A DNA stretch of 64,000 bases, taken from the NCBI GenBank assembly GCA_000230955.3, contig CP007060.1, positions 2,108,001 through 2,172,000 on the forward strand, given 5' to 3'. Position 1 is the first letter of the stretch; every line of letters begins with the position of its first letter. Source of the DNA: Halobacterium sp. DL1 (GTDB taxonomy: Archaea; Halobacteriota; Halobacteria; Halobacteriales; Halobacteriaceae). The translations under genes and the position numbers were made by a program. The notes beneath the pieces were generated by a model. The model had not been told where the DNA came from, did not search any database, and was given only the letters and a program-made list of their open reading frames with translations. Positions 4,936-55,398 of the stretch are shown here, piece after piece.

Positions 4936-5382
4936 ATGGAACGACTGCGGGAGTTGCTGGGCGACGACGCCGGCGGCGTCGCCCTGTTCGTTGATGGGCC
5001 GAACGTCCTCCGCGACGAGTTCGACGTGGACCTGGACGACGTGCGGGAGCGCGCCGCGGCCGCCGGGCCGCTGACGGTCACCAGGCTCTACCTCGACGAG
5101 CACGCCACCCCGGAACTCATCCAGGCGGCGGAGGCCCGCGGCTACGACGTGCGCGTCACCAGCGGCGACGTCGACGTGAAACTCGCCGTCGACGCCACCG
5201 AACTCGTACTCTCGGAGGGCGTCGACGTGCTCGCCGTCGCGTCCCGCGACACGGATTTCAAGCCCGTCCTGGAGCAGGCCGCCAGACGGGGCGTTCGCAC
5301 GCTCGCCATCGCGCCCGGCGAACACGGCCGCTCTGATGCGCTTCGTAACGCTGCCGACGACGCGATTGTTCTCGGCGAGTAA
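4936..5382 (+). CDS. NYN domain (PIN-like) protein, LabA/DUF88 type
   Basis: A 148-aa single-domain protein of the NYN/TIGR00288 group, related to PIN-type nucleases. The acidic metal-site residues of the fold are visible: Asp20 in LFVDGPNV, the aspartates of TSGDVDVKLAVDA, and the aspartates of AVASRDTDFKPVL. The role is presumably RNA cleavage or RNA processing, but the substrate in archaea is not known. It is monocistronic, divergent from gcvT and followed by a long repeat element rather than a gene. Confidence 0.85.
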   Translation: MERLRELLGDDAGGVALFVDGPNVLRDEFDVDLDDVRERAAAAGPLTVTRLYLDEHATPELIQAAEARGYDVRVTSGDVDVKLAVDATELVLSEGVDVLAVASRDTDFKPVLEQAARRGVRTLAIAPGEHGRSDALRNAADDAIVLGE

Positions 5383-5416
5383 TAACCAGAGACACTGCGC
5401 TCGTCGCTTCTAAGTA

Positions 5417-5670
5417 CACCCAGAAAGCCCCGGGTGACTGAACCGTCCGCGACTCGCTGCGCGCGTTCGCTCCGCTCACGTGCTTGCTTCGTCGGGGCCG
5501 GGTTCAGCCACCCGCCCCTTTCAGTCCCGCCGCGCAGTTTGTCTAATCGGCAGGGGGCGGACTGAAAGGGGCGGGACTGTGGACGAAGACAGGCGACGTA
5601 AGCACCGCAGGCCGCAGGCCGAGGAGCGCAGCGAGCCTCTCGAGTCCACAGTCTCGGGGCTTTCTGGGTG
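5417..5670. repeat. Nested inverted-repeat element, predicted four-way junction
   Basis: A 254-bp intergenic element bounded by perfect 16-bp inverted repeats (5417-5432 CACCCAGAAAGCCCCG; 5655-5670). Inside are three adjacent stems: 5433-5444 with 5501-5512 (12 bp, one mismatch), 5511-5527 with 5559-5575 (17 bp perfect, core GACTGAAAGGGGCGGG) and 5576-5584 with 5644-5652 (9 bp perfect). Almost no bases separate the stems, so the element can fold as a cloverleaf or cruciform. It could be a non-autonomous mobile element or a structured RNA. No protein is encoded. Confidence 0.75.
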
Positions 5671-5751
5671 CAACAAGAGAGATGACAGAGACGGAACCAC
5701 CGACACTAACGTTCTGAAAGACTTTCACACGAGAAGGCAGAACAGCCACCC

Positions 5752-6597
5752 ATGACCGACCTGGAGACGCCCGTCCTCGACAACCACATGCACCTCGACG
5801 CCGCCAACCGGGGCCTCGAGGCCGTCGGGGAGTTCGCGCGCAGCGGCGGGACCCACCTGCTCGTGGTGAACAAGCCGTCGTGGCACCACGGGGTCGAGGC
5901 AGACGACGGCGAGGCGTTCCGTCCGGTGTTCGAGGAGACGCTGCGGCTGGTCTCGGCGGCCACCGACCGTCTCCCCGGGCGCGCGTGGCCCGTGCTCGGC
6001 GTCCATCCGGGACTCGTCTCGCGGCTCGTCGACGAGCGCGGGTTTGACCCCGAGGAAGCGCGGGAACTGATGTGCGCGGGCATCGACGTCGCCGCGGAGT
6101 ACGCCGCCGACGGACAGGCTGTGGCGCTGAAATCCGGGCGGCCGCACTACGACGTCAGCGACGCGGTGTGGGAGGCGTCGAACGCAGTTATCCGGCACGC
6201 CTGCGAGCGCGCCGCGGAGACGGGCGTCGCGCTTCAGTTGCACACGGAGGCCACTGAGGACCTGACCGACGTCGCCGGGTGGGCCGAGGACGCCGGTCTG
6301 TCGCCGGGGCGGGTCGTCAAGCACTACGCGAGCGGGCGACTCGAGGGCGTCACGAAGAGCGTGATGTGCGAGAAGGACTACCTGGAGACGGCCGTCGAGG
6401 TGGGCGAACCGTTCCTGATGGAGACCGACTTCGTCGACGACGCCGACCGCCCGGGCGCGGTGATGGGGCCGAAGACGGTGCCGCGGCGCGTGCGGTGGCT
6501 CCAGAAGCAGGGCCACGACGACGCGGTCCACCTCGCACACGTCGAGACACCGGAGGCGGTGTACGGCATCGACACGCGGGGGACGCTGGACGGCTGA
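5752..6597 (+). CDS. TatD-related metal-dependent hydrolase
   Basis: A 281-aa TIM-barrel amidohydrolase of the archaeal TatD-like group. Metal ligands are recognisable: His12 and His14 in LDNHMHLD, the histidine in LQLHTEATED and the Asp in METDFVDD near the C terminus. A conserved VHPGLV segment follows the first strand region. Bacterial TatD proteins act as DNA exonucleases, but the archaeal branch is uncharacterised, so the substrate is unknown. It lies just downstream of the structured repeat and 96 bp before the DUF2150 gene on the same strand. Confidence 0.85.
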   Translation: MTDLETPVLDNHMHLDAANRGLEAVGEFARSGGTHLLVVNKPSWHHGVEADDGEAFRPVFEETLRLVSAATDRLPGRAWPVLGVHPGLVSRLVDERGFDPEEARELMCAGIDVAAEYAADGQAVALKSGRPHYDVSDAVWEASNAVIRHACERAAETGVALQLHTEATEDLTDVAGWAEDAGLSPGRVVKHYASGRLEGVTKSVMCEKDYLETAVEVGEPFLMETDFVDDADRPGAVMGPKTVPRRVRWLQKQGHDDAVHLAHVETPEAVYGIDTRGTLDG

Positions 6598-34820: not shown

Positions 34821-34977
34821 TGCCCGGGGAGGGTTTTGAACCCTCGATCTCCGCATGTCCCAGGTTCGAGGCTCGGCGGGCCTCGCGGACATGCCGAACA
34901 ACCACGTGGCGTGGGTTGCCGCACCGAAGCTCGGAACCCTATGAGTGCGGCGCTATGACCAGCTAAGCCACCCGGGC
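34821..34977 (-). tRNA. tRNA-Met (CAT), elongator, with intron
   Basis: The acceptor stem GCCCGGG (34971-34977) pairs with CCCGGGC (34822-34828), with discriminator A at 34821. The T arm GAGGG-TTCAAAA-CCCTC and D arm are normal. The anticodon stem CCGCA/TGCGG encloses loop CTCATA-A with anticodon CAT. An 83-nt intron (34857-34939) interrupts the loop one base after the anticodon, the canonical archaeal 37/38 position. The mature length is 74 nt before CCA. Introns in elongator tRNA-Met are known in haloarchaea. Confidence 0.93.
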
Positions 34978-53958: not shown

Positions 53959-55398
53959 ATGGTCGCTGACGAAAAAGTGGAGCAACTGCTTGAGCGGATC
54001 ACTGCTCTCGAAAATCGCGTTGATGAACTTGAGCAGGAGAAAACAAACCTCAAGCAAGAGAATCAGCAACTCCGCGAAGAGAACAAACGTCTCAGAGCTA
54101 AGCTCCGGTGGTACGAGGGACCGCATACACCACCGAGCAAGGACCAGTCAGACCAAGAGGAGTCGTCGTCCTCGTCCGATGCGGACGAGGACGACGAACA
54201 GCCACGTACTGACGGTGGGACACCGGGTCGAAAGCCCGGACACGACCCTGAGTGGCGAGCCGCACCTGACCCAGATCGAGAAATCGACGTTACCTGTGAC
54301 TGCTGTCCGGAGTGTGGCGAAGGGTTCGACGAGTCGGCGGGCGTCAGCCCCCGACTCGTCGAGGAACTCCCGGATCCACAGCCACCCGAAGTTACACAGT
54401 ACAACCGCCATCACTACGAGTGCTACTCTTGTGGAGCCGAGACTGTCGCTTCACACCCCGACTGCCCCGACGAGGGGCAGTTCGGGGTGAACGTCATCGC
54501 CCAAGCCGCTCTTTCCAGATACGATCACCGCCTCCCCTACCGGAAGATCGCCGACCGCTTCGAGCAATTGCATGGCCTCGAACTCTCAGGTGCATCTGCG
54601 TGGCACGCGACCGAGCGCGCTGCGCGCGCCGGTCGCTGTGAATACGAACAGATCCGCCGACGGATTCAGCACGCTGACGTTGTTCACATCGACGAGACGG
54701 GAATCAAACGCGACGGCGAACAGGCGTGGATGTGGACGTTCAGGACGGACGAGCACACGCTGTACGCGGTCAGAGAGAGTCGCGGAAGCGATGTTCCCGT
54801 AGAAGTCCTCGGCGAGGACTTCGCGGGAACGGTCGTCTGCGATGGGTGGACGGCATATCCGGCATTCACCAGCAACCTCCAGCGGTGCTGGGCACATATT
54901 CTCCGCGAAGCGGAAGATGTCGCTGACAAGTACGAGGACGGAGAGCCAATTCACCGGCATCTCACGCAAATGTACGTCGGTCTCCAGTCGTGGCTGGAGA
55001 CCGACCCGAGCCTTCGTGAGCGAGCACAGATGCACCGATCAAGCCAGAACGGACTCAAATCGCTCGTTAGGTGCTCAGCTACCGACGACCCAGTGGCAAC
55101 ACTGCTCGGGAAGATCAAAGGAGGGATCGACCACTGGCTCACCTTCATCGGTGAGCCAGCAGTCTCGCCAACGAACAACGCTGCGGAGAATGCGCTTCGT
55201 GAGCCGGTTGTTCTCCGGAAAATCATCGGGACGCTCCGCAACGACCGCGGGATGTTCGTTCACGAGACGTTGCTGTCCCTGCTGGCGACATCGCGCCAGC
55301 AGGGACGCAATCCCTACGAGAAGCTCAAGCGCATTGTCCGAGACAACGAGATGATTTCACGGACTCACGCTGTGCCATCCGTCGAGTCCTCGGGGTAA
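53959..55398 (+). CDS. IS66 family transposase
   Basis: A 479-aa transposase. Residues 3-55 form a leucine-zipper-like coiled coil (LLERITALENRVDELEQEKT). A polar linker follows, then a zinc-binding segment (CDCCPECGEGF and CYSCG), then the DDE domain: Asp in VVHIDETGIKRDGE, Asp in GTVVCDGWTAYP and Glu in SPTNNAAENALRE. The frame is intact and the catalytic acids are present, so it may be active. GTG and ATG codons are adjacent; the ATG at 53959 follows GAGGAGAG, a fair ribosome-binding site. Confidence 0.93.
   Translation: MVADEKVEQLLERITALENRVDELEQEKTNLKQENQQLREENKRLRAKLRWYEGPHTPPSKDQSDQEESSSSSDADEDDEQPRTDGGTPGRKPGHDPEWRAAPDPDREIDVTCDCCPECGEGFDESAGVSPRLVEELPDPQPPEVTQYNRHHYECYSCGAETVASHPDCPDEGQFGVNVIAQAALSRYDHRLPYRKIADRFEQLHGLELSGASAWHATERAARAGRCEYEQIRRRIQHADVVHIDETGIKRDGEQAWMWTFRTDEHTLYAVRESRGSDVPVEVLGEDFAGTVVCDGWTAYPAFTSNLQRCWAHILREAEDVADKYEDGEPIHRHLTQMYVGLQSWLETDPSLRERAQMHRSSQNGLKSLVRCSATDDPVATLLGKIKGGIDHWLTFIGEPAVSPTNNAAENALREPVVLRKIIGTLRNDRGMFVHETLLSLLATSRQQGRNPYEKLKRIVRDNEMISRTHAVPSVESSG

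Follow-up and report, generated by a model that had tools for sequence, protein, structure and literature searches.

In the 64,000-nucleotide stretch of Halobacterium sp. DL1 DNA analyzed here (the window), a 254-bp element built of inverted repeats lies between the genes of an NYN domain protein and of a TatD-related DNase (Table 1). The closest named relative of this TatD gene was found in Halarchaeum acidiphilum. Among 13 Halobacterium genomes, just two (G000, G010) carried an element at this site. The same gene order with just a 35-60 bp gap and no element was found in G001, G002, G003, G007, G008, G011 and G020 and likewise in Halarchaeum acidiphilum, which gave no match to the covariance model described below; in G004, G005, G006 and G009 another gene was located upstream. 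At the gathering score, Rfam produced no match for the element and only two tRNAs in the window. A tRNA match over 157 nt on the minus strand (34821-34977) probably represents an intron-containing tRNA gene.

When the sequence was rechecked, all four stems that the earlier note had described were present (Table 1). Folded as single-stranded DNA, the 254 bases reached -82.8 kcal/mol, an energy that none of 200 dinucleotide shuffles attained (shuffled sequences, -56.0 +/- 4.0 kcal/mol; z -6.7), so the stems are not a product of chance. Besides those of the element, the window contained a single 16-mer inverted repeat whose arms lie at most 300 bp apart (54163/54182), a perfect 16-bp hairpin at 54163-54197 (GTCGTCGTCCTCGTCCG..CGGACGAGGACGACGA) that is unrelated to the family described here.

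A more fitting description of the 254 bp is that a hairpin of about 100 bp occurs twice, the two copies lying tail to tail on either side of a 41-nt spacer. Since the near-invariant unit ends (GAAAGCCCC, GCCCCTTTCAGTCC) are duplicated in inverted orientation, the 16-bp terminal and the 17-bp central stem must form. On the C-rich strand the unit reads (AACACCTC)GAAAG-CCCC-P2(12)-P3-CTCGCTGCGC-P4-TGCTTGCGTCG-P3'-P2'(12)-GCCCC-TTTC, where the bracketed outer flank was kept in the aligned copies to position -8 and not past it. The right unit was the best-scoring unit of the genome, and across the family the spacer mostly measured 38-48 nt (45 unique dimers).

Table 1. Features of the element and its neighbors (window coordinates).
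Feature	Position	Strand	Remarks
NYN domain protein gene, upstream of element	4936..5382	+	PF01936, E 1.6e-24
Outer flank of left unit, conserved 8 nt	5415..5422	+	consensus AACACCTC, here TACACCCA
Terminal stem	5417-5432/5655-5670		16/16 paired
Left hairpin unit, GAAAGCCCC ... GCCCCTTTC	5423..5522	+	covariance model R1, 103.9 bits; alignment A1
Left-unit P2 stem, 12 bp (5432-5443 with 5502-5513)	5432..5513	+	12/13 helix pairs covary in family
First lateral stem as first given	5433-5444/5501-5512		11/12 paired
Conserved loop motifs CTCGCTGCGC (5453-5462) and TGCTTGCTTCG (5481-5491), flanking variable P4 hairpin	5453..5491	+	
Central stem	5511-5527/5559-5575		17/17 paired
Spacer between units, 41 nt	5523..5563	.	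family form AGTCCCACCC..CCGGYTGRYCARCCGG..GGGTGGGACT
Right hairpin unit, inverted	5564..5664	-	covariance model R1, 125.2 bits, E 1.3e-29
Right-unit P2 stem, 12 bp (5644-5655 with 5573-5584)	5573..5655	-	mismatches near base
Second lateral stem as first given	5576-5584/5644-5652		9/9 paired
Outer flank of right unit, conserved 8 nt	5665..5672	-	minus strand reads TGCACCCA
TatD-related DNase gene, downstream of element	5752..6597	+	PF01026, E 2.8e-22

Related copies, for which the earlier note had proposed a search, were found as a dispersed family across the class. A covariance model built from 43 units detected about 40 units in the host Halobacterium genome, with weak matches elsewhere in the window (E 0.03-0.5) left out of the counts, and it matched 127 of 146 Halobacteria genomes in a survey that counted units up to a ceiling of 24 per genome. 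Outside the class, a sample of 197 genomes of the phylum gave no match. Of 69 viral contigs sharing a 14-mer with the element none matched the model, and no phage match was obtained either. The copies were intergenic and, apart from a strand bias of solo copies (see below), their gene context was mixed, as judged from gene calls made by a simple composition rule. Neither a resident transposase nor any other gene recurred next to the copies; neighbors that did recur belonged to orthologous loci.

Some copies were plasmid-borne, including a match on the Halobacterium noricense plasmid NZ_CP089469.1 and two units on the DL31 plasmid CP002989.1. The surroundings of L313, a copy from the DL31 plasmid in which no IS6 ends were recognised by eye, resembled those of L314 (Natrinema), L316 (Haloprofundus) and L154 (G000 contig 2), with shared GGAATGGTCGGTCGCGAGCGA.. 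and CGGGCTAAAATGAATCTGGTCTCGACGCCAGCG sequences; a plasmid region common to several genera is a possible source of this similarity.

The sequences of P2, P3 and P4 varied freely among copies while complementarity was kept. Over 155 distinct arm pairs P2 was 93.6% Watson-Crick paired, compared with 44% when partners were shuffled; double-sided cells numbered 298 against 103.5 +/- 6.4 in shuffles, tests that leave the shared ancestry of the copies in place. The covariation score was 0.585, and at most 0.106 with slid partners. In a MAFFT alignment that was not structure-fitted, double-sided changes affected 12 of the 13 P2 helix pairs and 5 of 5 pairs of P3, and in Halorubrum the outermost GAAAG/CTTTC pair was altered on both sides to CAAAG/CTTTG. 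Other positions were constant: the CCCC/GCCCC and CTCGCT/TTGCGTCG loops stayed unpaired, and P4 held a G.T in 43 of 43 units.

Compensatory changes of the kind sought in the earlier note were thus abundant, and they were located in the lateral hairpins. The central stem showed no covariation above shuffles. Within Halobacterium the outer stem had 125 matches where shuffles gave 110, a small surplus (reached in 25 of 2000 shuffles), and the larger excess of the outer-flank stem outside this genus was confounded by lineage. Because the lateral hairpins covary while the terminal and central stems do so little or not at all, the supported structure is the unit hairpin and not the four-way junction; of the proposed junction the lateral hairpins stood, and its role as an evolved structure as a whole is weakly supported.

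Comparison of one locus between genomes revealed how the arms change. At the asd/dhs locus, the arms within the same flanks differed among G001, G003, G009 and G020; G000 had a collapsed hybrid there and G008 a near-clean loss, and no element was present in G010, G002 and G006. Hairpin arms are exchanged as wholes at this locus, for which gene conversion between copies through their near-invariant ends would be the simplest route. In L267 (1189-1309) the inner loop was inverted relative to the arm ends, which fits an inversion across the P2 stem; as this was the single clear case, arm inversion was rejected as a common process.

Several variants of the unit were also observed. A second arm type, with the P2 sequence GGCGGGCTCGCG and an inner ACATATC..GATAGCGG hairpin, occurred as right arms of the L023, L030, L041, L163 and L191 type in Halobacterium and others; in the dimers observed, its partner was always a standard arm. 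Copies from Haloferacaceae (L162, L165, L182, L183, L189, L208, L209, L222, L243, L248) carried an extra conserved module, CCTCCCCAGCC..TCCCTCGCGC..CGCGCCACCGCA, with further variable hairpins, on the 3' side of the unit at a distance of about 30-330 nt; in L222 it formed the 235-nt spacer between two units. PATE-like palindromes (GTTCGAAAGAC..CGTGATGA) were inserted within arms in L009, L029, L172/L197 and L256, and G143 has two near-identical copies of such a palindrome-bearing composite, which thus seems to have travelled as a whole. In two Halorubrum copies (L190, L263) part of the 5' end (TTATAAAT..AACACCGMCAAAGCCCC) was repeated in tandem directly ahead of the unit.

Signs of mobility came from copies in other genera. 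Two copies about 99% identical were present at unrelated sites of one genome (G143, L172/L197), and similar copies in another genus had their ends farther out than borders of the 5417-5670 type; no target duplications were found at the core border (-8). The copy L169 had IS6-like inverted repeats (GGCGGTGTTTAGTTAAGC / GGTCGTGTTTAGTTTAGC) that began 39 nt outside the core and were flanked by an 8-bp target duplication, ATCGAGGA. An exact pattern that placed such ends, which have a GG tip and a TGTT motif, at a fixed distance from the core gave 31 matches class-wide in 9 genomes and six genera other than Halobacterium, and the reversed control pattern gave none. Perfect 8-bp duplications flanked 8 of 27 IS6-ended elements, and at least 7 of 8 positions agreed in 12 of 27; both dimers and single-unit forms bore duplications, and L332 and L333 represent a single insertion found in two species. 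Most elements were 204-416 bp long, and the core-to-end distance varied by genus from 39 to 61 nt.

The IS6 family is known for 8-bp duplications, GG tips and a cTGTt motif (PMC7986276), and its archaeal members may merit a family of their own (PMC6807381). The IS6 transposase domain PF13610 was detected in 105 of 146 genomes of the class, and the transposase elements shared the IS6-type ends (for example GGTAGTGTTCAGATAAGC; L301, L306) and likewise had 8-bp duplications; transposases and hairpin element did not strictly co-occur across genomes. Mobilisation by Y1/IS605 or RAYT transposases was ruled out by the distribution of PF01797, which was missing from many high-copy genomes (G015, G025, G027, G030, G039) and occurred in genomes that lack the element (G006, G035, G064, G084, G128). 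Since copies with IS6-type ends and 8-bp duplications share these ends with transposase elements, the hairpin family is a MITE-like non-autonomous element without a gene, one of the identities that the earlier note had considered.

The element in the window is probably an old, end-eroded copy of this class-wide haloarchaeal fold-back MITE. As pieced together from the comparison of copies, the core, one hairpin of about 100 bp or two tail to tail, would be bounded by IS6-type inverted repeats in lineages with intact ends, and an IS6-family (archaeal, IS240-like DDE) transposase would move the gene-free element in trans, making the 8-bp duplication. After insertion between genes, whole arms would be swapped between copies, gene conversion being the simplest means; non-pairing arms would be lost or replaced, so that the stem sequence drifts while pairing stays, and selection on a folded single strand, probably of DNA, would keep the pairing. 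The window copy is then best explained as an older insertion in which the ends decayed and the core did not, and we infer that it formerly had IS6 ends; no 8-bp target duplication was found around it. Against this reading, a search of 84 Halobacterium copies, that of the window among them, found no recognisable IS6 end, with no excess at up to 3 mismatches; the genome of the window copy had no PF13610 match, and the co-occurrence of IS6 transposases and the element is not strict. Moreover, decay should hit the core as fast as the ends, and the core is far better kept.

These observations leave room for a core that is independent of IS6, a reading we regard as possible if doubtful. The core would be a single-stranded DNA hairpin or cruciform that a host or element protein recognises by its shape; IS6 ends would have captured this core several times, and IS6 mobility would be secondary. 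Its intact pairing in Halobacterium without IS6 ends and the constant unpaired positions in an otherwise drifting hairpin speak for this, and the spread of core-to-end distances among genera also fits repeated capture. However, no partner protein was found, Y1 transposases do not track the element, no recurrent gene adjoins the copies, and insertion without duplication was not directly observed. In its fullest and equally tentative form, the core could be a selected haloarchaeal nucleic-acid device that folds on one strand, is read by a protein through its shape and has its stems renewed by arm exchange, with IS6 ends a mere vehicle that captured the core several times.

Selection may also be questioned altogether. 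Mutation that perfects palindromes (template switching), together with gene conversion, could keep long inverted repeats paired without selection, as the arms swapped whole at one locus and the inverted inner loop of L267 might suggest. This process would, however, have perfected the fixed unpaired loops and the G.T of P4 too, and we consider it an unlikely source of the covariation.

Mismatches in P2 provided a hint as to which strand folds. Among the non-Watson-Crick cells, read on the C-rich strand, A.C was seen 49 times and G.T 20 times, C.C 21 and G.G 3 times, and C.T plus T.C 18 and G.A plus A.G 6 times. Read on the G-rich strand, the commoner ones are G.T, G.G and G.A, the mismatches best tolerated by a folded strand. 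Folding is thus likelier on the G-rich strand, to which the asymmetry points weakly, the copies not being independent. In RNA helices G.U is clearly commoner than other mismatches, whereas in P2 it made up 2.6% of the cells, hardly above G.G plus G.A. That the G-rich strand might give a structured RNA, either a small RNA or a leader or trailer of adjacent transcripts, agrees with the covariation of the stems, with the mismatch asymmetry and with the bias of solo copies between co-directional genes, whose G-rich strand lay in sense orientation at 25:12. A structured RNA, as also suggested in the earlier note, was nevertheless not favored and appears quite improbable: besides the low G.U content and the missing Rfam match, no promoter-like A+T peak preceded the core over 184 copies (C-rich-strand direction), inverted dimers place both strands in every transcript, and the gene context was otherwise mixed. 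TATA-like boxes ahead of some Halorubrum copies looked lineage-specific. Altogether, DNA is favored over RNA as the folded molecule. A local accident of sequence without relatives has practically no chance of being correct, as fold energy against shuffles, the roughly 40 dispersed units of the genome, the class-wide matches and the covariation all contradict it and nothing was found in its favor.

The repeat is present in nearly nine of ten sampled haloarchaeal genomes, and no description of it was found in the open-access literature searched. By counting its copies one can test whether selection acts on the folding of small mobile elements, on which of the two strands, and to what end; the covariance model can also be used to annotate many intergenic repeats of the GAGCGCAGCGAG type in haloarchaea. 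Among known systems, REP, BIME and REPIN sequences (PMC3116915, PMC2817692) likewise form inverted hairpin pairs between genes, so that the layout is REPIN-like, but their units measure 20-40 bp compared with about 100 bp here, and no RAYT-type Y1 transposase tracks the hairpin units. PATEs, of the IS605 type, are also non-coding, palindromic and haloarchaeal, but have neither inverted terminal repeats nor duplications (PMC3119063); the IS6-ended copies have both, so that a PATE or IS605 origin was set aside, and PATE-like palindromes occur as insertions in hairpin copies. SMR-A of Haloquadratum walsbyi (HqIRS42/43/55) is haloarchaeal and of similar size, about 110 bp, with inverted terminal repeats, up to 54 copies and no known transposase; its same-type copies commonly share more than 95% identity, insert into PATE palindromes and leave no duplications (PMC3119063). 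Judged by this description, membership in SMR-A was rejected, since the hairpin copies are strongly diverged, intergenic and flanked by 8-bp duplications where ends survive.

The closest likeness was to IS6-family MITEs in ISfinder, MITEHarch3 of halophilic archaeon DL31 and MITEBth2, with members of 227 and 336 bp (PMC7986276, PMC6807381). These share with the hairpin family the absence of a gene, IS6-type ends, 8-bp duplications and a similar size, and MITEHarch3, likened here by its description, is haloarchaeal and may be a relative. By the same descriptions, the hairpin family differs in being class-wide, in combining a conserved fold with drifting sequence and in that most copies lack recognisable ends. 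IS6-ended MITEs are thus elements of a known kind, and the unusual part is the core, whose fold persists throughout the class although the sequence keeps changing.
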